DNA of 64,000 nucleotides from Slackia exigua ATCC 700122 (GTDB taxonomy: Bacteria; Actinomycetota; Coriobacteriia; Coriobacteriales; Eggerthellaceae): assembly GCF_000162875.1 (NCBI RefSeq), contig NZ_GG700630.1:822015-886014 (forward strand), written 5' to 3'. Under the pieces are notes generated by a model. The model saw only the letters and a program-made list of their open reading frames with translations, ran no database searches and was not told the origin of the DNA. Positions 38,687 to 58,189 of the stretch are shown one piece after another. The number at the start of each line of letters is the position of its first letter. Position 1 is the first letter of the stretch. Made by a program: the position numbers and the translations under genes.

Positions 38687-39412
38687 TCATGATCGGGCAC
38701 ACCCGTCGCCGATACCGTACCGCCGCTTCACGCGTGCGATCTTGCGACGCCACGGCGCATAGAGAACCACCAGAAAGAACACCGTGGACGCCGCATGGAC
38801 GGCATCGAATGGAACGGCGGCGGCGTATACGGCGATGAGCTCGGCGAACGTATGCGGATGGAAGAACCCGACGACGCTCCAGAGATTAAGGACGAACCCG
38901 TAGCCGAATCCCGATACGAATCCGTACGCGTACAGAGGCCACGTCCGCCCGCCTCCGTCCGCTTCGCCGCCGGCCCCGTCCCCGCACGCCTTCGCCACGA
39001 ACGCCGCACCGTAACCGACCATGCCCCACGCATACATCTGCCACGGGGTCCATGCGCCTTGCCCGAAGAAGAAGTTCGAGACCAAAGCCGCAAGCGCGCC
39101 GACGAGAAACCCCGCTTGACGGCCGAAGGAGGCGCCGGCGACGATGGCGATGGCCGATACGGGCTTGAAGTCGGGAATAGGTGCGAACAGGATGCGCCCG
39201 GCAGCGGCCAGGCTTGCCAGCACGACAATGGGCATGGTGTCGCGCAGGCGAGGGCGGCGATGCTCGAAGGAGGCGAAGAACGCCGCGAGGGAGACCGTCA
39301 CGACGACGAAGCTCAACAGCCCCGCTTGGTCTATGCCCGCAGCCGCGCAGACGGCAAGTCCCAGCGGGACGATCGCGACGGCGACGGCCTCGAGTGCGGA
39401 AGCGACCGTCAT
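38687..39412 (-). CDS. ECF transporter S component, candidate corrinoid-specific
   Basis: A 241-aa membrane protein with about six membrane segments. IPDFKPVSAIAIVAGASFGR and GALAALVSNFFFGQGAWTPWQM, followed by YAWGMVGYGAAF, are typical of ECF S components of the type found beside DUF4430 proteins. S components bind the vitamin and toppled in the membrane deliver it via EcfT and the ATPases. The start codon overlaps the ATPase stop by four bases (ATGA). The cobalamin-riboswitch-like leader and DUF4430 genes upstream suggest it carries corrinoid. The substrate call is inference; riboflavin or other substrates are not excluded. Confidence 0.8.
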   Translation of the reverse strand: MTVASALEAVAVAIVPLGLAVCAAAGIDQAGLLSFVVVTVSLAAFFASFEHRRPRLRDTMPIVVLASLAAAGRILFAPIPDFKPVSAIAIVAGASFGRQAGFLVGALAALVSNFFFGQGAWTPWQMYAWGMVGYGAAFVAKACGDGAGGEADGGGRTWPLYAYGFVSGFGYGFVLNLWSVVGFFHPHTFAELIAVYAAAVPFDAVHAASTVFFLVVLYAPWRRKIARVKRRYGIGDGCARS

Positions 39413-40857
39413 GAAAGGGCTCCGAACAGGCGCGAGGAATCGTTCGCCCGATAGATGAGGTTGTTCTCGAAGAAGTCGGCCACGGCCTCCGTGCAGACGA
39501 CCTGCCCGTCGAAGACCATCGAGACCACATCGGCCGTCGCATAGGCGAAATCGAGGTCGTGCGTCACGAGCACGACCGTGACGCCCCTATCGGCGGCCGC
39601 CCGCAAAACATCGTGAACCTGCGCGCAGAATGCAGGATCGAGCCCCTTGGTCGGTTCGTCGAGCATCAGCAGATCGGGCTTGCAGAGCAGAAGCTTCGCC
39701 AAGGCGAGCATCTGCTGCTGCCCGCCCGAAAGGTCGTACGGATGCCGGCCTTCGCACCTCGCAAGCCCGTACCGTTCGATGGCGGCGCGCACCTCGTCTT
39801 CGCCGTACGCGCAGCGCCCCGACCATTCCATGAGCTCCTCGAACACGTCGTCGCACACGAAGAGGGCCCGAGGATCCTGAGGAAGCAGCGCCTGGGACCC
39901 GCGGAAGGCGTTGCGCACGCGGCCGCGCGCGACCTTGGGCGGCACACCGGCCGCGACGCGCACGAGCGTCGTCTTGCCCGAACCGTTGCCGCCTACGACC
40001 GCATGCACCGATCCGCGCGCGACCTCGAGATCGGCGCCTCGCAGCACCCAAGGGTCCTGCCTGTCGTAACGCGTGTAGACATCGTCGAAGGAAAGCGCCC
40101 GCGCAGCACCGAAGCGTTCCTCGAAACGGCGCTTCTGGGATGCCATCAGATCCGCTATCGCGGAGCGCGGCGCGCAAGGTTCCAGCGGCGAGAGCGAGAC
40201 CGTCTGAGTGGCGATCCCTTCCACCTCCTCCGGAGCGTGCGTCGTCATGACGACCGTCACGCCGAGCTCGCGGTTCACGCGCGCGAGCAAAGACGCGAAT
40301 CGCCGGCGGGCGTTCGGATCGAGCTGGGCCATAGGCTCGTCGAGCAGGATGACGCGCGGGCGCAGCGCGAGCACGGCCGCCAAGTTCACCAGCTGCTTGC
40401 TGCCGCCCGAAAGGCTCTCGGTCGACGTGTTCATCCAGGATTCGATGCCGAAGAAATGCGCGACCTCCGCGATGCGGCGGCGCATGGCGTCAGGGTCTTC
40501 CCCGAGATTCTCGAATGCGAAGGCGAGCTCGTGCCAGACGGTGTCGCAGACGATCTGGGCATCGGGATCCTGCCCCACGAACCCGATGCGCGCGGCGGAT
40601 TCGCGCACGTCGATGCCTTCGACGGGCATTCCGTCGCACACGACGGCGATCCCGTCCGCCGACGCCGACCCGCCGTAGACGCCCTGAGGCATGAGCTCGG
40701 GTTTCAGCGAGCGCAGCAGCGTCGTCTTGCCCGAACCCGTCGATCCGACGACGACGCAGAACGCGCCTGCTTCGACGCGAAGCGTGGTCGGCGGCAGGGC
40801 GCAGGCGGCAAAGCCGGCATAGGAGAACGAAAGGCCGCGAACCTCTACGATCGCCAT
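39409..40857 (-). CDS. Fused double ATPase of an ECF transporter (EcfA-EcfA')
   Basis: A 482-aa protein with two complete ABC ATPase halves. The first (about 1-225) has Walker A VGSTGSGKTTLL, signature SLSGGSKQLVNL and Walker B VILLDEPMAQLDP. The second (about 260-470) has GGNGSGKTTLV, LSGGQQQMLALA and LLMLDEPTKGLDP. Both halves appear catalytically complete. They would form the energy module with EcfT. The start ATG 40857 (MAIVEVRGLSFSYAG) overlaps the ecfT end by 13 bases; the frame extends further to 41637 but that part lies in ecfT. In most bacteria EcfA and EcfA' are separate genes, so the fusion is notable but known. Confidence 0.92.
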   Translation of the reverse strand: MAIVEVRGLSFSYAGFAACALPPTTLRVEAGAFCVVVGSTGSGKTTLLRSLKPELMPQGVYGGSASADGIAVVCDGMPVEGIDVRESAARIGFVGQDPDAQIVCDTVWHELAFAFENLGEDPDAMRRRIAEVAHFFGIESWMNTSTESLSGGSKQLVNLAAVLALRPRVILLDEPMAQLDPNARRRFASLLARVNRELGVTVVMTTHAPEEVEGIATQTVSLSPLEPCAPRSAIADLMASQKRRFEERFGAARALSFDDVYTRYDRQDPWVLRGADLEVARGSVHAVVGGNGSGKTTLVRVAAGVPPKVARGRVRNAFRGSQALLPQDPRALFVCDDVFEELMEWSGRCAYGEDEVRAAIERYGLARCEGRHPYDLSGGQQQMLALAKLLLCKPDLLMLDEPTKGLDPAFCAQVHDVLRAAADRGVTVVLVTHDLDFAYATADVVSMVFDGQVVCTEAVADFFENNLIYRANDSSRLFGALS

Positions 40858-41726
40858 GCCAGACGCTCCCTTGCATACAGGGCCGCAGGGGCCAGGACGA
40901 ACGATGCGTACGGCGCATACCCCCACCACAGGGCGGGCATGTCGAGCCGGGGATAGAAGGCGAATCGGGCGCAGGCGACGGCGACGAGCGCGGCCGATGC
41001 GGCTGCAAGCGCAAGCGCGATCGCAAGGAATGCCGCATCCCGCGCGCGCATGCGGTAGCGCCGATAGGACGTGCGGCGCGCCGTAGCGCCGAAGCCGCGG
41101 GCACGCATCGCGTCGCTGCGCACGAGGCCGTCTTCCATGGCCCATCCCATCAGCACCGACGTGACGCGCATGCGCGCCTTGCCCGCTGCGCGGATGCCCG
41201 AGGGAGCGCCGGCGCTCATGGCTTCCTGCACGGACAGGATCGAACGTCCGCGCTTCACGAGCTGGGGAGCCAGCCGCAGGACCTGCGAAACCATGAGCGA
41301 CACGACGGGAAGCGCGCGTCCTGCCACCGCCAGCGAACGCTCGCTGTCCATGCAGGCCGCATAGCACGAGAACCAGAGGATCATGGCGGCGAAGACGCAG
41401 CCTGCCACCGCGCCGTACGCAAGCGCCTCGAGATAGACGGCGCGCGCGCCGATATGGAAGAGCAGCGTCGACCCGGACGAAGTGAACAGCGGATTCGCGA
41501 TCGCGATGGCGCAGGCCATGGGAACGGACCAGCCGAGCGAGCGCACCGTCGGCCGCGCGCCGCGGGTCACGAACGAGCACGCGAGCGCGCCGACGAACGA
41601 AATGCCTGCGCACACGGGATGAAACGCCCCCATGCACAATGCGATCGCGCAGGCCAGGTACGCGAACGTGACCGACGGATGGAACGCGTCGAAGGGATTG
41701 CCCCCTACCCCGTCACGTACACCCAT
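40845..41726 (-). CDS. ECF transporter transmembrane component EcfT
   Basis: A 293-aa EcfT protein with about five to six membrane segments and a coupling-helix motif MRARGFGAT (ARG signature) near residue 207, preceded by VRSDA. It couples ATP hydrolysis by the fused ATPases to the S component. The start ATG 41726 overlaps the DUF4430 gene end by 22 bases; GTG within the overlap is an alternative. It is transcribed with the rest of the operon. Confidence 0.88.
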   Translation of the reverse strand: MGVRDGVGGNPFDAFHPSVTFAYLACAIALCMGAFHPVCAGISFVGALACSFVTRGARPTVRSLGWSVPMACAIAIANPLFTSSGSTLLFHIGARAVYLEALAYGAVAGCVFAAMILWFSCYAACMDSERSLAVAGRALPVVSLMVSQVLRLAPQLVKRGRSILSVQEAMSAGAPSGIRAAGKARMRVTSVLMGWAMEDGLVRSDAMRARGFGATARRTSYRRYRMRARDAAFLAIALALAAASAALVAVACARFAFYPRLDMPALWWGYAPYASFVLAPAALYARERLAWRS

Positions 41727-42532
41727 GAGACCGCATCCCCATCGGAAAGCACGTAGTTCCCCGCGCTGTACGAGGGGAACGACCCGTTGACGTAGTAGGT
41801 CCATCCGCTCGTCGCGCCGTATTCCTTCTCGGCAAGCCCCCCGATGGCGCTCACGTACAGCCCCATGGACGTCGACACCGCATTGACGTTGCCGTTCGTG
41901 GCGACGAGCGCATCATAGGCCGTGGCGCCCTTCTCGAAGGTGAGCGTCGCCGAGCCGCCCACGCTGCCGTCCGCCGCGCTTGAATCGATGCTGCACGTCA
42001 CCGTGATGGTCCGGTCGCGCTTCCCTGCCGCATCCTCCGACGAGGACGACGACGGTTCGGACGGAGACGACCCCGCATCCGCGGACGACGATCCCCCCGC
42101 CTCGTCCGGCGAGGCGGCGCTCGACGAAGATCCCGCATCGGACGATGCCTTCGCCTGGGATGCGGAATCCGTGCCCGATGGGGCCGCAGAACCCGATGAG
42201 GCATCTGCGGCGGCGGCGCCGGATTCATCGGACGCCGAGGCGCCGGCATCGTCCCGATCCAAGGCGGAGGCCTCGGCCCCATCGGCCTGCGACAGGGAAC
42301 CCTCGCCCAGGACGGTGGCGAAGAGCCCGTCGTCGGCCGGGATGCCGGAGTGGACGAGCGCCCACGACGACGTCGCGATCAGGGCGGCCGACGCGAGGGC
42401 GAGAAGGGCGATCAGAGGATAGGGCGCACGGTACGACGCGCGGCCCCTTTCGGACGCGCGTCGTTTCTCCGTAGGATCGAATGCGCCTCCGGCGGAGCCG
42501 AGGGGGGCTATGCGTTCGTCTTTATCGACCAT
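41705..42532 (-). CDS. Membrane-tethered DUF4430 (transcobalamin-like) protein
   Basis: A 275-aa protein with a cytoplasmic N-terminus, one membrane segment (about residues 39-60: LIALLALASAALIATSSWAL), a long Ser/Ala/Asp-rich linker (about 65-175) and a C-terminal DUF4430 domain (about 178-275) recognisable from SATLTFEKGATAYDAL and SGWTYYVNGSFPSYSAGNY. DUF4430 resembles the C-terminal, ligand-binding beta domain of transcobalamin and intrinsic factor. It would display this domain outside the membrane. It begins nine bases after the giant gene and precedes ecfT, so it is a likely ligand-capture partner of the ECF transporter. Confidence 0.88.
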   Translation of the reverse strand: MVDKDERIAPLGSAGGAFDPTEKRRASERGRASYRAPYPLIALLALASAALIATSSWALVHSGIPADDGLFATVLGEGSLSQADGAEASALDRDDAGASASDESGAAAADASSGSAAPSGTDSASQAKASSDAGSSSSAASPDEAGGSSSADAGSSPSEPSSSSSEDAAGKRDRTITVTCSIDSSAADGSVGGSATLTFEKGATAYDALVATNGNVNAVSTSMGLYVSAIGGLAEKEYGATSGWTYYVNGSFPSYSAGNYVLSDGDAVSWVYVTG

Positions 42533-42541
42533 GGACCTCTC

Positions 42542-45500
42542 CTAGCCCTCGGCCGTATCGCTGCGACGACGCGCGACCAAGAACCACCAGAACGAACCGA
42601 TGAGCCCGCACATGCCCACGACAAGCCCGACGAGCGGAAGCGGAGAAGCCGACGAACCGGATGGCTCGGCGACGCTCTTGAGGACGGCTCCGCCCTCATC
42701 CATGCCCCTGGCCCCCGCGGTGCCGGACGGTGCGGAGGAAGCGTCGAGCGCCTCGCCGTCGGTCGACCCGTCGCCCTTTTTCTCGGAACCTTTCGCCTTG
42801 TTCTTGACGAGCGCGCCGGAGACAGGCGCATGGGACGGCGCGACCCTGCCGCCGCGCGCATGCGGGGCGTCGGAATCGGACGATGCCCGTGTCTCGCCCT
42901 GAGATCGCGGCGCATCCGATGTCCCGGCGCCCTCCGGATCGGGAATCCGGGGCGTAGGCGCGTCGGGGCCCGCGGTCTTCGACCATTTCGCGAAAAGACG
43001 CGTATCGGAGGCTACCGGCTGAGAGAAATCCCAGGCCGTCGTGCATGCCTTATCGGAGAACCAGCCTTCGAAGGCGTATCCTTCGCGCGTCGGATCCGCA
43101 GGCCTTTCGACCGTGCCTCCCGCTTCGACGATCGGGGATTCGATGGCGCTGCCGCCGGTCGAGTCGAACGTGACGGCGAAGCCGTCGGCAGGCACGAGCT
43201 TGAACAGATGCCCCGAGTCGTTCGTGTAGTACAGAGACCCCTGCGCATCGGCGACGACCGACGCCGTCGTGTAATTCCGCTTGTCGGCATCGGGCACGTA
43301 GAGCGCATACGCGCGATCGTCGCCGACGCGGTAGCGATACACGCCGCCGGGATTGCAGTTCACGGTGAAATAGACGTAGGTCTCGCCGCCGCGGGAAGAA
43401 ACCAGAGGCGTGGCCTGGGCTGCTCCCGCACCGATGGCAACGGTGCGTTCCACCTGCATCGTTGCAAGGTCGATGACCGAAAGCGTGCCCGCGCCCGTCG
43501 CATCCATGCCGCAGACGAAGGCTTTGCCGCCCGACACCGTGGGCGTCGAGGTCGACGTCGCGGCGAATCTCACGGATCCGCTCTCTTCGAGGGAATCGCC
43601 GACGCGCACGATCCGATGGAGCGTCCCGTCGTTGCGGCTCACGGCAAGATAGGCATCCTGGCCTGCGGCATCGGCCGCGGGCACCTTCGTGATGCCGGCG
43701 CGCACGGCACCGCCCACCGAAACCGAGGACAGCTCCTTGCCGGTCGCGCCGTCGAGCAGTTTCACCGAGCCGGATTCGCCGCCGATGACGACATCGGAAG
43801 CGGAGGCCGCGGCGCCGGCCCAGTAGTAGCCTTCGGGCGTTTCATCCGCCTTATCGACCTTCTTCCAGACCACGGCTCCCGTACGGGCGTTCACGCAGAC
43901 GAGCGTGCCCGCCGCGCCGTTCCATTTCGCGTCGAGCGACGTATACCCCGCCACGACGTAATCGCCGATGACCGAGACCGAAGAAAGCGCCTGCGCGTCG
44001 GGCGCGAGGCCCGTAAGCGACCAGACGCAGGTCAGATCATCGGCCGCATAGGCGGACAGGGCACCGCCGTCGGCAGGCACGATGATGCGGCCGCCCGCGT
44101 AGACCGGGCGGGAGAAATATCCGACGGAAGCCGTCATGGGAGCTTCCTTGAGCACCGTGCCGTCGGCGCCGCTCACGATGCGCAGCGTATGCTTCGTCGC
44201 GATGTACGCGTTCCCGTTGACGAGCAGCGGATCGGAGGCGCCGCTGAAGTCGGCGCCCGAACGCCAAGCATAGCTCCAGGCGAGCTTCGCCGCGCGCGAC
44301 GGCGTCGATGCGTCCGTGGTCGCGCCGCCGACCTTGCCGCTCGCGAACGCCGGCCAGTCGGCATCGTAGGAAGGCAGATCGTCGCGCGGATGGATGGGAA
44401 CGTCGGGGGCCTTCTCCTTGCCCGACGCATCGACGTAACGCAGCTCGAGAGACGTCGTCGAGGAGTCGATCAGGAAGTTCCCGATGGACGTCTGCGCCAT
44501 CTTGCCGTTGACGAGGAACTGCCAGTAGCTCCAACCGCCGCCCTGCTCCTGTTTCGTGCCGAGCGTGCGCGTGCCGTCCGCCGAAGTGATGGAGTTGAGG
44601 AATCCGCCGGCGTAGTCGTATGTGAGGCCCGCCTCGTCGAGCACCGGCTTGAACGCATCCCATGCGGTCTTGTCGCCGTCGGTCGAAAGGGAGACCTGCG
44701 TGGGCGTCGCCCACGGCTCCATGACGAACGAACCGTCGGCGCCCGCGCGGGACGGCCCTGTGACCGTAACCGCGATATCGGCCGCATGTCCGGCGTTCGG
44801 ATCGTCCTGACCCGACGTTCCCGCGACCGTGAACGTCGCGCTCACGGGCTGGCGGTACAGCATCCGGTACTTCGCGAGCGTCGTGGCATCGATGCCCGCA
44901 TCCTTGTAGCGCTCGTAGTATCCGCCGAACTTCTCGCTGGTCAAGCAGCTGGTCACCGTGACCTTGGCATTGTATTCGGGCGTGTGCACGAGACGCAGCG
45001 TTTCATGCGCAATCACGCCCGGCCTGCTGGAACGGAAGAGGTTCCACTGCTCGGAGGGATGCGTCGAATCGATGTCGGTGACGATGATGCCCGAGGCCGA
45101 CGTGTCGGAACGCGACCAGGACAGCCCAGTCGCGCCGCAACGAGACGCCTCCTTGAAGGCGTTCAGATCGCCCGTCACATGATCGACGGCATCCGCGCCT
45201 CCGGCCAGGTGCGCAGCGTATTCGCCTTGCACCTGCATCATGAGCGCGACCTCGGCGTCGAGCTCGGCCGGATCGGTCTCCTTGACGGTCAGGGGGATAT
45301 CGAGCGAATCGGACGTGCCGTTGAGCGCGACGGCGACCGTCAGGACGTAGTGCGCATCGCCGGCCCCCGGTATGGGTCGAACGACCTTGAGACGGTAGCC
45401 GTTCACCGTAGCGGAGCCGGATGCGTCGGTCGCCTCGTCGGCGAGAGGCGCGCCATTCGCATCCACCTTCTTCACCGTCGTGGAAACGGAATAACCCGAG

Positions 45501-47764
45501 CCCGTGGCCTTCAGGTCGCGCTTGCGCGGCAGCTGGATATCGGCCGTGACCGCGGTCGGATCGACGATCTCGCCGCTCTGCGAATACGTCAGCTTGACGC
45601 GGCCGAGCGCCGCGCGGACCTTGTCGAGGTCCGTCGGATCGGATGCGGTGGCCTTCGCGGTCACATGGAAGGTTCGATCGACGGTCGGCGCCGACTCCGA
45701 TGCATCGGCGAGCTTGAACGCCAGATGCGCGGTGATGTCCGCGCTGCGGTCCTCGTCGGCCAGGCGCGTGACCGCGCCGTCGGATGCGACGACGCTCTCA
45801 TCGGTGGATTCCCATGTCACGGATGCCCATGAGGGAAGAGACAGGCGCAAGGAGAGGTCGCCGCGGGCATCGATGGAAGACGCCTCGTCATCGGCTTCGC
45901 CGCCTTCATACCTGACCAGGTTCGACGCGACGAGCTTCTTGGCGGCCAGGGCTTCGAGATCGGCCGCGACCTTATCCATATCCCAACGGATCTTCGGGCT
46001 GCACGTCCAGGTCTCGATCGTTGCGCCCGAGGAGACCTCGAACGTGACGCGCGGCGATCCGAATCCCACAGGCGTGCGGGACGGATCCTCGTAGTAATAG
46101 GAGATGGTCCCGTTCGAGTCGCCGGCATCCGCCGAGACGGATGCGCCTCCCTTGGCGGAACCGCAGGTCGCAACGCGCACCGTCGCATCAGGGAAGCCGA
46201 GTTCGGCGAGCTTCGACGCGACCATGGCGTTCATGTTCGCGTCGGCGCCGAAGACGGGCGCGGGAACGTATCCCGCATCGCGCAGCGCCGCGACGGCGGC
46301 CTTCGCGGAATCGGCCGCGACGACCGGCCCCGCCGAGGCGGACTTCTCGTTATAGCCGCCCGCCGTGGCCGTGACTTTGAGGGTCGCGCCCTCCCAGTCG
46401 GATCGGACGACGAGCGTCTTTCCCGTCTGCCCTGCGATCTCCTCGAATTCGGACGCGTCTGCGCGTTTCACGTACCACCGGTAGCTCATGGCCGTTTCGT
46501 CAGGCAGCACGCCTCCCGAGAGACGGGCCTGGGCCGTCAGCGTGTCGCCCGTGGCGACGACGCTCTTGCCGTTCGGCTTCTCGATATCGAGCCGCGCGAG
46601 ACGCAGCGAGCCTTTGGGCGTGATGGGGCCCATGGTGAACGAGACCTCGTTCGCGCCCGCCGACGCGACGACGCGCAGGAACTTGCCGTTCGCCGAGCCG
46701 TCGTCCGGGATGGCGACGGATGGCGACGTCCCAAGCGATGCGCCCGTCGTCGCCGTCGGCGAATCGACGAGCGTCCACGCATAGGTCGCTTTGGAGGCGT
46801 CGACCGCGGTCCCGTTCGACGCCGTCGCGGCGCTCGAGCCCCCCGTGAAGGCGACCGCACCGATCGTGTCGCCCGGATTGATGATCGCGTCGACGTCGCC
46901 GCTTATCTTGGTCGCGCCGCGATGCATCTCGACGCGGCTCAGGAACGCCGCGCCCTGGGGCGCCAGCGGACCGACGCCCGATGAATCCTGGGTTTCCCAT
47001 GCCGATTCGTCCGAAGCATGCACGCGCACGTACATGCCCGAAAGATCGATGCCGCCCGCCGTCCCCGCCTCGGGTATCGCGAACGTAGCGCCCGTGGCGC
47101 CGGGAATGTCCTTGTACCCCCACGTGTCGTGCGAGGAGTACTGCCATTGGAAGGTGACGCCTTCGGTCAGGAGCTTCTTCGAGGAATCGTACGCATACGC
47201 CTTGAGCGTGGCGCCGAATTCGGCCTTGGGAGCGACGCCCTCGCCGGCTGCGTCGTATACCGCGACGCTCGAAATATCGACATCCGTCGAGGCGCCGGGT
47301 TCGTCGTCGTCGCCTCCCCAATCGTCATCGTCGTCGCCCCAGCCCGCAGGCTTGGCGGCAGCCGAAGGCTCGGAAGCGTCCGGAACGTCCGCGGAAGGCG
47401 CCGCTTCGGGATCTGGGTCGGAAACGGGGTTCGCAGACGGTTCGTCGACGGCCGAAGCGTCCGCCTCGCCCTCAGGTTCCACCGCAGCCGCATGGCTCTC
47501 GGCATCCGATGCGCTTCCCGCAGGCTCGGGCGCCGCAGCGGATGACGGCCCTTCGGCGGAACCTTCGATGGCGGCGGACGGCCCGTCCTGATCGGCAGCG
47601 GCTTTTTCGACCTCGTCCGCCCAAGACGGCATCGGGCAGAGGGAGACGGCGAGAACCACGGACGCAAGCACCGCGATCACGCGATCGGGAATGCTCGCAA
47701 GCGTCACCTCGGGAGTGCCGTCTGCCGCCGAGAGGCGAACGCGACGAGAGAAGGCTCCGGACAT
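42542..47764 (-). CDS. Giant secreted, C-terminally anchored protein with DUF4430, beta-propeller and InlB repeat
   Basis: A 1740-aa protein. A signal peptide ends at about residue 49 (CPMPSWA-DE). Next come an acidic Pro/Ala/Ser stretch (50-180), several Ig/cadherin-like modules (about 180-1010), a DUF4430-like domain (about 1020-1120, with GGGWSYWQFLVNGKMAQTS), a PQQ/YncE-like beta-propeller (about 1160-1525), an InlB/Listeria-Bacteroides repeat (about 1530-1597: VTFDSTGGSAIESP, GYAFEGWFSD), a Ser/Gly-rich stalk and a C-terminal membrane segment (about 1705-1728) with RRRSD after it. There is no LPXTG. I start it at ATG 47764 with GAAAGGTG; the frame to 47959 is the riboswitch leader. It heads the ECF operon. 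A surface receptor or adhesin for corrinoids is inferred. Confidence 0.88.
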   Translation of the reverse strand: MSGAFSRRVRLSAADGTPEVTLASIPDRVIAVLASVVLAVSLCPMPSWADEVEKAAADQDGPSAAIEGSAEGPSSAAAPEPAGSASDAESHAAAVEPEGEADASAVDEPSANPVSDPDPEAAPSADVPDASEPSAAAKPAGWGDDDDDWGGDDDEPGASTDVDISSVAVYDAAGEGVAPKAEFGATLKAYAYDSSKKLLTEGVTFQWQYSSHDTWGYKDIPGATGATFAIPEAGTAGGIDLSGMYVRVHASDESAWETQDSSGVGPLAPQGAAFLSRVEMHRGATKISGDVDAIINPGDTIGAVAFTGGSSAATASNGTAVDASKATYAWTLVDSPTATTGASLGTSPSVAIPDDGSANGKFLRVVASAGANEVSFTMGPITPKGSLRLARLDIEKPNGKSVVATGDTLTAQARLSGGVLPDETAMSYRWYVKRADASEFEEIAGQTGKTLVVRSDWEGATLKVTATAGGYNEKSASAGPVVAADSAKAAVAALRDAGYVPAPVFGADANMNAMVASKLAELGFPDATVRVATCGSAKGGASVSADAGDSNGTISYYYEDPSRTPVGFGSPRVTFEVSSGATIETWTCSPKIRWDMDKVAADLEALAAKKLVASNLVRYEGGEADDEASSIDARGDLSLRLSLPSWASVTWESTDESVVASDGAVTRLADEDRSADITAHLAFKLADASESAPTVDRTFHVTAKATASDPTDLDKVRAALGRVKLTYSQSGEIVDPTAVTADIQLPRKRDLKATGSGYSVSTTVKKVDANGAPLADEATDASGSATVNGYRLKVVRPIPGAGDAHYVLTVAVALNGTSDSLDIPLTVKETDPAELDAEVALMMQVQGEYAAHLAGGADAVDHVTGDLNAFKEASRCGATGLSWSRSDTSASGIIVTDIDSTHPSEQWNLFRSSRPGVIAHETLRLVHTPEYNAKVTVTSCLTSEKFGGYYERYKDAGIDATTLAKYRMLYRQPVSATFTVAGTSGQDDPNAGHAADIAVTVTGPSRAGADGSFVMEPWATPTQVSLSTDGDKTAWDAFKPVLDEAGLTYDYAGGFLNSITSADGTRTLGTKQEQGGGWSYWQFLVNGKMAQTSIGNFLIDSSTTSLELRYVDASGKEKAPDVPIHPRDDLPSYDADWPAFASGKVGGATTDASTPSRAAKLAWSYAWRSGADFSGASDPLLVNGNAYIATKHTLRIVSGADGTVLKEAPMTASVGYFSRPVYAGGRIIVPADGGALSAYAADDLTCVWSLTGLAPDAQALSSVSVIGDYVVAGYTSLDAKWNGAAGTLVCVNARTGAVVWKKVDKADETPEGYYWAGAAASASDVVIGGESGSVKLLDGATGKELSSVSVGGAVRAGITKVPAADAAGQDAYLAVSRNDGTLHRIVRVGDSLEESGSVRFAATSTSTPTVSGGKAFVCGMDATGAGTLSVIDLATMQVERTVAIGAGAAQATPLVSSRGGETYVYFTVNCNPGGVYRYRVGDDRAYALYVPDADKRNYTTASVVADAQGSLYYTNDSGHLFKLVPADGFAVTFDSTGGSAIESPIVEAGGTVERPADPTREGYAFEGWFSDKACTTAWDFSQPVASDTRLFAKWSKTAGPDAPTPRIPDPEGAGTSDAPRSQGETRASSDSDAPHARGGRVAPSHAPVSGALVKNKAKGSEKKGDGSTDGEALDASSAPSGTAGARGMDEGGAVLKSVAEPSGSSASPLPLVGLVVGMCGLIGSFWWFLVARRRSDTAEG

Positions 47765-47850
47765 GGGAGGCACCTTTCTTCCAGGGCTCTGAATATCGAT
47801 GGACAGGCATTCCGACTTGTCGTCATTCGGAAACGGCGCGCGCCCGATCA

Positions 47851-47953
47851 GCGCACGCATCGACTCATTCCCGTCGGATTCACGGTTACTGGCATAGCCG
47901 GGGAATCCCACCCCGATTTCCCCAAGCGCGCCTGCGCGCGCCCGCGTGTCGCC
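47851..47953 (-). ncRNA. Cobalamin-riboswitch-like leader of the DUF4430/ECF operon
   Basis: Read on the minus strand, the leader has the core elements of B12 riboswitches in order: GGGGAA (47918-47923); a CGGGG/CCCCG stem (47911-47915 with 47899-47903); GCTATGCCAGTAACCGTGAA (47879-47898), which aligns with the conserved GCTGNCCCGCAACTGTGA; and a B12-box-like GAGTCGATGCGTGCG (47852-47866). An outer stem pairs GCG-A-CACGC (within 47941-47953) with GCGTGCGC (47851-47858). A short P6-like stem CCGT/ACGG suggests a compact class. A 6-bp hairpin TTCCGA/TCGGAA lies between it and the ribosome-binding site, with no U-run, so control may be translational. The call is by eye. Confidence 0.7.
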
Positions 47954-47969
47954 ACGCATCCATCATGGC

Positions 47970-47992
47970 CATACATATGTATGCGGATTGTA
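47970..47992 (-). promoter_or_regulatory. Palindrome and -10-like box ahead of the riboswitch
   Basis: CATACATATGTATG (47970-47983) is a perfect 14-bp palindrome; a minus-strand TACAAT lies at 47987-47992. Together they suggest a promoter and operator just upstream of the leader. No good -35 is seen. Confidence 0.4.
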
Positions 47993-48000
47993 CCATGCAG

Positions 48001-50242: not shown

Positions 50243-58189
<7,947 letters not shown>

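Follow-up and report, generated by a model that had tools for sequence, protein, structure and literature searches.

The first gene of a transport operon in Slackia exigua ATCC 700122 encodes a 1740-amino acid (aa) surface protein, which is probably a two-site cell-surface receptor for vitamin B12 (corrinoids), belongs to an energy-coupling factor (ECF) uptake operon of the ECF-CbrT type, and would be the counterpart of BtuG/BtuH in Gram-positives. The operon lies in a 64,000-nucleotide stretch of contig NZ_GG700630.1 (positions 822,015 to 886,014), referred to here as the window. The vitamin is named as B12 because a cobalamin riboswitch, a CbrT-like S component, and a transcobalamin fold converge on it; by analogy with known systems, both the DUF4430 domain and the beta-propeller of the protein would bind it. 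An earlier note on this DNA had placed immunoglobulin (Ig)-like modules, a DUF4430 domain, a propeller, an InlB repeat, and a C-terminal helix in one polypeptide of a vitamin-uptake operon. This composition is borne out by Pfam, AlphaFold2, and structure matches. Structure prediction returned the DUF4430 and propeller folds where the note had placed them, with matches to the transcobalamin beta domain and to BamB and Cake8, and the operon is recognized by its ECF components and CbrT-like S component.

The regulation of the operon and the identity of its transporter are well supported at the level of sequence. The propeller gene is followed on the same strand by the genes of a small DUF4430 protein, EcfT, a fused EcfA-A', and the S component. 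Every component of an ECF transporter is encoded in the operon, the S component being CbrT-like, and the small protein is the second one with a DUF4430 domain. Among all PDB sequences, 6fnp_A is the sole match of the S component at E ≤1 (E 8.1e-8), and the S component used as a profile retrieves only 6fnp_A (E 2.2e-16) and 4hzu_S (E 7.1e-4). The structure 6FNP is that of ECF-CbrT, for which uptake of cobalamin and cobinamide has been demonstrated (PMC5997447). In Pfam, the S component matches DUF6580 (E 1.4e-12) and, below its cut-off, ECF-ribofla_trS (E 3.8e-5). The best models for the fused EcfA-A' are ECF_ATPase models, with scores under their cut-offs, and the EcfT gene has no Pfam match.

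Upstream of the gene, the AdoCbl-II model RF01689 matches at 29.9 bits (E 8e-5; curated cut-off 36.5), and RF00174 matches over 47785-47978 at 23.0 bits (E 7e-4; curated cut-off 31.5), the latter being its single match listed in the genome at E ≤0.001. An aptamer core pattern, built from the columns invariant in 27 relatives, has one match in the window, at 47882-47912, and none in 100 shuffled sequences. The underlying alignment holds 27 of 31 sequences, all from full-length matches; loci L034, L061, L067, and L069 were omitted as long. Immediately 5' of the aptamer, an extended -10-like sequence, TGGTACAAT, is visible by eye at 47987-47995 on the minus strand.

The DUF4430 domain provides the direct link to B12 carriers. 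Two AlphaFold2 models were made from the window and the named loci described below, covering residues 245-1175 (pLDDT 87.1, pTM 0.50) and 1085-1597 (pLDDT 93.5, pTM 0.88) of a longer, 1805-aa reading frame, whose numbering minus 65 gives that of the 1740-aa protein. The DUF4430 part (model residues 813-931) superposes on haptocorrin 4kki with Z 12.3 and a root-mean-square deviation (rmsd) of 1.9 over 94 aligned residues, and on the isolated human transcobalamin beta domain in its apo and cyanocobalamin forms (5no0, Z 10.4 over 97 residues; 5np4, Z 10.3). The sequence profile of the domain has six matches at E ≤1 among all PDB sequences. Transcobalamin-1 4kki is at the top (E 0.0047), followed by transcobalamin-2 (E 0.058) and a putative metal-binding protein, 3u7z (E 0.07), and the remaining three are transcobalamin-2. 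In Pfam, the match falls just below the cut-off in the protein scan (E 9.8e-5, 23.2 bits against 23.8) and above it in the genome-wide search (28.8 bits). The modelled domain is folded like the beta domain with which transcobalamin and haptocorrin bind B12. Judged by titles and abstracts, the literature searched holds no B12-related function of DUF4430 in bacteria and, by titles and abstract openings, no Gram-positive B12 receptor based on a propeller or on DUF4430.

The propeller is of the BamB/PQQ type. It matches PQQ_2 in Pfam (E 6e-10), eight sequence repeats can be counted by eye, and its sequence profile retrieves BamB and PQQ enzymes. Model residues 136-507 superpose on YxaL (Z 40.2), on the eight-bladed design Cake8 (Z 39.0, 314 of 320 residues), and on Rv3035 and BamB (Z about 36). 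BtuG (3DSM) is absent among the 50 best structure matches listed for the model and among 59 profile matches, absences which alone prove nothing; the matches listed for the model include no B12-binding propeller. Residues R200, Y295, W296, Q239, Y446, T448, and N450 (model numbers) vary little or not at all (identical in 53 to 55 of 55 sequences); conservation at the stretch 490-499 is biased by the search pattern. The near-constant aromatic and polar residues cluster in the motifs GYYWxG, Q-x-L-S-T, and YFTxN, which by eye do not seem to be repeated from blade to blade, and such single motifs would suit a binding site. In window coordinates, GYYW falls within 43808-43831, the Q at 43991-43993, and YFTxN at 43358-43372. 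A negatively charged face like that of BtuG is not argued, because the window propeller (isoelectric point 5.5) is less acidic than the median of 80 relatives (4.5).

Features of the propeller gene and its operon are collected in the table. The longest open reading frame (ORF) runs from 42542 to 47959 on the minus strand (1805 aa), and it was rejected as the gene since the riboswitch models extend over the part taken up by its first 65 codons. The start at 47764 is favoured by these riboswitch matches and by the alignment of AAGAAAGG and ATG in Slackia leaders. In the 1805-aa frame, the Pfam scan places aBig_2 at 690-747, DUF4430 at 1097-1165, PQQ_2 at 1231-1368, and List_Bact_rpt at 1594-1658. 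Likewise, ORF 39409-41637 was rejected as a single protein, its first part being an out-of-frame reading of EcfT.

Table. Features of the surface protein gene, its riboswitch, and the genes of the operon in window coordinates.
Feature	Position	Strand	Basis
AdoCbl-II-type cobalamin riboswitch aptamer, full model 1-81	47853..47939	-	RF01689, core pattern
Whole gene, 1740-aa surface protein	42542..47764	-	ORF reading and leader alignment
Start codon of the 1740-aa protein	47762..47764	-	AAGAAAGG and ATG 3' of leader, alignable with Slackia relatives
Signal peptide region, cleavage near PSWA/DE	47618..47764	-	Hydrophobic stretch read from sequence, no predictor
Ig-like beads, probably three (residues 180-485 of 1740)	46310..47227	-	AlphaFold2 model
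Atrophied Ig domain aBig_2 (PF20578)	45719..45892	-	Pfam E 2.6e-8
DUF4430 / transcobalamin-type beta domain	44435..44791	-	Pfam, PDB profile search, AlphaFold2 model
BamB/PQQ-type beta-propeller, apparently eight-bladed; proposed corrinoid-binding face	43187..44305	-	Pfam, AlphaFold2, structure match
InlB B-repeat / List_Bact_rpt (PF09479), one repeat	42986..43180	-	Pfam E 3e-18
C-terminal membrane helix, then RRR tail	42569..42640	-	Sequence reading and pattern search
Small DUF4430 protein, 275 aa, N-terminal membrane stretch	41705..42532	-	PF14478 E 7.9e-16
EcfT transmembrane component, start codon picked by eye	40845..41726	-	4hzu_T E 0.0076, 4huq_T E 0.0098 (weak)
Fused EcfA-EcfA' ATPases, 482 aa from ATG of MAIVEV, start 40857	39409..40857	-	Two ABC_tran stretches (Pfam)
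CbrT-like S component	38687..39412	-	6fnp_A match, Pfam DUF6580

The remainder of the protein consists of surface modules. The signal region has no lipobox cysteine by sequence reading. The third Ig-like bead of the AlphaFold2 model matches the SCAB1 Ig domain (Z 13.1, rmsd 1.8, 88 aligned residues), and beads one and two are visible only within multi-Ig matches of large rmsd. Complement C3 and contactin, found by whole-model Foldseek of the N-terminal part, have TM-scores ≤0.2 and were taken as indicating Ig-like beads only. The InlB repeat matches internalin B 2y5p (E 9.4e-6). A pattern search of the whole protein for LPxTG, [LIM]PxT[GSA], and NPxT was negative, in agreement with the earlier note. 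The N-terminal half (44435-47227) is 44 % identical to L137 and L126 (Collinsella sp. BA40 and C. intestinalis) and only 31-33 % identical to Slackia loci such as L076 and L079, and this hints at exchange of the outer part. Upstream of the operon lie RpoB and RpoC, with an unnamed ORF and the DUF554 and Mntp genes in between. RpoC (50243-54619, minus strand) carries at its C-terminus, an odd location, a match to the RNA polymerase alpha C-terminal domain (PF03118, residues 1310-1361, E 4.4e-10).

Relatives were examined in two sets, a family set of 138 genomes and a set of named loci; the sets overlap (L074 and L038 are on one contig) and their counts are not independent. In the family set, 93 genomes have some match to the 1740-aa protein, many of them to the InlB repeat alone, and 43 propeller-covering places, the window included, were hand-picked among the matches listed. 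Among these at least 43 propeller genes, an AdoCbl-II match lies up to 9 kb upstream on the same strand in 37, a CbrT-like S component lies downstream in 33, and both are present in 29. Across all 138 genomes, AdoCbl-II matches (E ≤0.001) occur in 86 and relatives of the S component in 110. The named loci, the 80 best among 198, were all retrieved by a single peptide pattern, GxLYYxND[SA]G, so that its conservation there is by construction. They come from Slackia, Eggerthella, Gordonibacter, Collinsella, Olsenella, Atopobium, and others, and seven are clostridial. In 73 of the 80 (72 of the 75 with 1.5 kb remaining), the propeller gene is directly followed by a small DUF4430 gene, and 39 of the 80 carry a CbrT-like gene within the stretch examined. 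By eye, the clostridial relatives of the small DUF4430 protein resemble lipoproteins.

The cobalamin riboswitch accompanies the propeller gene in most of these loci. The exact aptamer core, a pattern derived from family members some of which are also among the 80, stands just 5' of the gene in 48, and only two other core matches occur in 1.25 Mb counted on both strands. In genomes outside the family set, 15 of 44 have an AdoCbl-II match, and all 15 AdoCbl-II matches on contigs of named loci map just before the propeller gene (same contig assumed); one of the 44 genomes has a second match elsewhere. The scan with all Rfam at curated scores drew on the genomes with no AdoCbl-II match, leaving out L099, L110, L113, L135, and L144. 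Among the 24 loci covered, 10 have RF00174 (74-88 bits) ahead of the gene: the seven clostridial loci together with L133, L104, and L130. For the clostridial group plus L133, which is not a random sample, the figure is eight of eight at 75-88 bits. Taken together, a cobalamin-type signal (exact core, AdoCbl-II, or RF00174) stands before the gene in 59 of the 80 loci, with tests that differ per locus.

Several loci depart from the single-riboswitch layout. Tandem AdoCbl-II riboswitches lie 5' of the propeller gene in L045 (4787-4883 and 5062-5136, plus strand) and L040 (G068:C23:263601-263665 and 263853-263954, minus strand), and L082 and L084 have a doubled aptamer core as well. Loci L034 and L035 (G017:C25) are two propeller genes on one contig, each with its own riboswitch, and a CbrT-like gene is near only one of them. 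Flavin mononucleotide (FMN) riboswitches above the curated score lie 3' of the propeller gene in L148 (7790-7924, plus strand) and L095 (10769-10962, plus strand), where they may mark a neighbouring flavin-related gene. Ten neighbouring genes in five loci, searched at E ≤1e-10, include no named B12 enzyme.

The earlier note considered the domain combination unusual, and this did not hold. Frames of relatives not cut by a contig end range from 520 to 2952 aa and carry 0 to 5 in-chain DUF4430 domains, with at least one in 69 of 76 named and 35 of 39 family propeller proteins and none in seven and four, respectively. These counts come from the two overlapping sets after six cut or gapped proteins (L018, L060, L088, L115, L136, L141) were dropped. 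The combination is ordinary among Coriobacteriia. In relatives, the riboswitch and the small DUF4430 gene mostly persist with the propeller, itself constant by the way the set was found, and the beads, the InlB repeat, and the number of DUF4430 domains vary. Four of the seven clostridial relatives (L122, L147, L148, L149; frames of 520-548 aa) have little beyond a propeller with its signal peptide and anchor; the remaining three proteins are longer, and L143 and L153 among them have an in-chain DUF4430. The propeller is the conserved core, the part that persists across two phyla. A membrane-helix tail like that of the 1740-aa protein is the majority anchor type among relatives; L069, L071, and L072 have SLH domains instead, and L147 has a sorting-type tail. 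The C-termini of L122, L147, L148, and L149 contain TPATGD, PKTGD, NPKTSD, and NPPTGE before the membrane helix, and these stretches are perhaps non-standard sortase signals.

BtuG, reported only from Bacteroidetes, is the surface propeller of a B12-riboswitch uptake locus (PMC6143338). Its central cavity binds B12, and BtuG1 combines a B12-binding propeller with a second B12-binding domain in one polypeptide (PMC10404256, PMC6143338). The Slackia protein resembles BtuG and BtuG1 of Bacteroides in having a surface propeller, linkage to a B12 riboswitch and transport genes, and two B12 modules per polypeptide, which are here proposed ones. In contrast, BtuG is seven-bladed, and the Slackia propeller superposes on eight-bladed Cake8 and on BamB. 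Moreover, BtuG is an outer-membrane lipoprotein capping BtuB, whereas the Slackia protein has a membrane-helix anchor and an ECF transporter as its partner. The Slackia protein would work in the manner of BtuG/BtuH, with different parts, in a cell that lacks an outer membrane. The beta-domain fold is common to the DUF4430 domain and to transcobalamin, haptocorrin, and intrinsic factor. However, this family has an N-terminal alpha/alpha barrel; the Slackia protein has no Pfam match to one (E ≤0.1) and carries a propeller and Ig-like beads instead. The S component and EcfT are related to those of ECF-CbrT from Lactobacillus delbrueckii (6FNP), and the Slackia operon differs in its own EcfT, fused EcfA-A', and added surface proteins. 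With BamB, YxaL, and PQQ-type propellers, the protein shares the fold and a recognizable sequence profile, but its operon and partners are different and PQQ enzyme activity is not implied. One InlB repeat is held in common with internalin B, and no leucine-rich repeats or GW modules are among the Pfam matches of the Slackia protein.

Several observations weigh against a B12 receptor with two sites. The window riboswitch scores under both curated Rfam cut-offs, an AdoCbl-II match was not found in 29 of the 44 genomes outside the family set, and 14 of the 24 Rfam-scanned loci have no RF00174 match before the gene, three of which (L126, L132, L137) nonetheless carry the exact core. A CbrT-like gene is missing from the examined stretch in 41 of the 80 loci, including all 26 from Collinsella and both from Enorma. 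The three enzyme families searched in the genome (PF02310, NrdJ_Z, QueG) yielded no B12-using enzyme. The genome has five FecCD permeases above the cut-off, and other routes for B12 (corrinoids) or iron are possible. For the propeller, no ligand-binding residue is established. This last point bears on the main rival, in which DUF4430 binds B12 and the propeller is a docking scaffold by which the surface protein is attached to the cell wall, the ECF complex, or the small DUF4430 protein. The near structural neighbours of the propeller include the scaffold propellers BamB and Rv3035, and the Rv3035 orthologue MMAR_1667 has been reported in complex with FecB; propellers of such fold can scaffold proteins, as proposed for Rv3035 (PMC12802301). 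Moreover, the direct fold identity with a B12 carrier belongs to DUF4430, and the structure matches listed offer no B12-binding propeller. In contrast, the four short clostridial proteins keep the propeller as the sole recognized domain beyond signal and anchor, under a cobalamin riboswitch, and the near-constant residues lie in a few motifs rather than, by eye, once per blade. A purely scaffolding propeller is regarded as a possible but somewhat unlikely explanation. The suggestion of the earlier note that the propeller is a second ligand-binding or docking platform is plausible beside a transcobalamin-type domain in a B12 operon.

Import of another ligand, such as a corrinoid precursor, a cobalt complex, or an unrelated vitamin, with a riboswitch that merely reports B12 status, would agree with the lack of any B12-dependent enzyme in the genome by the families tried. 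PF02310, NrdJ_Z, and QueG were not found, a search that did not extend to EutBC, diol dehydratase, other class II ribonucleotide reductases, and reductive dehalogenases, and the genome thus pairs a cobalamin uptake operon with no B12-using enzyme by these three families. The weak riboflavin S-component match in Pfam and the FMN riboswitches downstream in L148 and L095 point the same way. Even so, this explanation is improbable, since the cobalamin riboswitch, the CbrT-like S component, and the transcobalamin fold concur, the first two of them in two phyla, and a precursor would be a ligand of the same kind, as CbrT also carries cobinamide (PMC5997447). The genome search did not find CbiC either, a result that fits scavenging. 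Ig-like beads and InlB repeats are frequent in bacterial surface adhesins, and many of the weaker family matches cover the InlB repeat alone. A mosaic adhesin that uses its beads and InlB repeat to attach to host or partner cells, with an incidental position in the operon, is nevertheless very improbable, given that the riboswitch and the small DUF4430 gene stay linked to it while the beads and the InlB repeat vary.

As a two-site B12 receptor, the protein would act as follows. Low intracellular B12 would relieve the riboswitch and lead to expression. The Ig-like beads would keep the two corrinoid-binding modules, DUF4430 and the central face of the propeller, off the membrane, and corrinoids would be captured through both. 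The small DUF4430 protein, close to the membrane, would receive the captured B12 and pass it on to CbrT, for import with EcfT, EcfA, and EcfA'. For capture and handover, the argument draws on the transcobalamin fold and the parallel to BtuG.

The identification of B12 transport systems in numerous gut genomes 'remains an open problem' (PMC6593275), and surface capture of B12 by Gram-positive gut and oral bacteria is little known. A wider proposal is put forward tentatively, with prospects a little short of even, namely that Gram-positives have a widespread means of B12 capture in which an eight-bladed BamB-type propeller is a high-affinity corrinoid receptor, joined to bacterial transcobalamin beta domains and assembled separately in Coriobacteriia and Clostridia, perhaps taking B12 from host carriers. 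If this is true, Gram-positives would combine the fold of animal B12 carriers with the strategy of Bacteroides, using a propeller distinct from BtuG. The operon offers short, expressible proteins from two phyla, and B12 binding would give bacterial DUF4430 domains a function.

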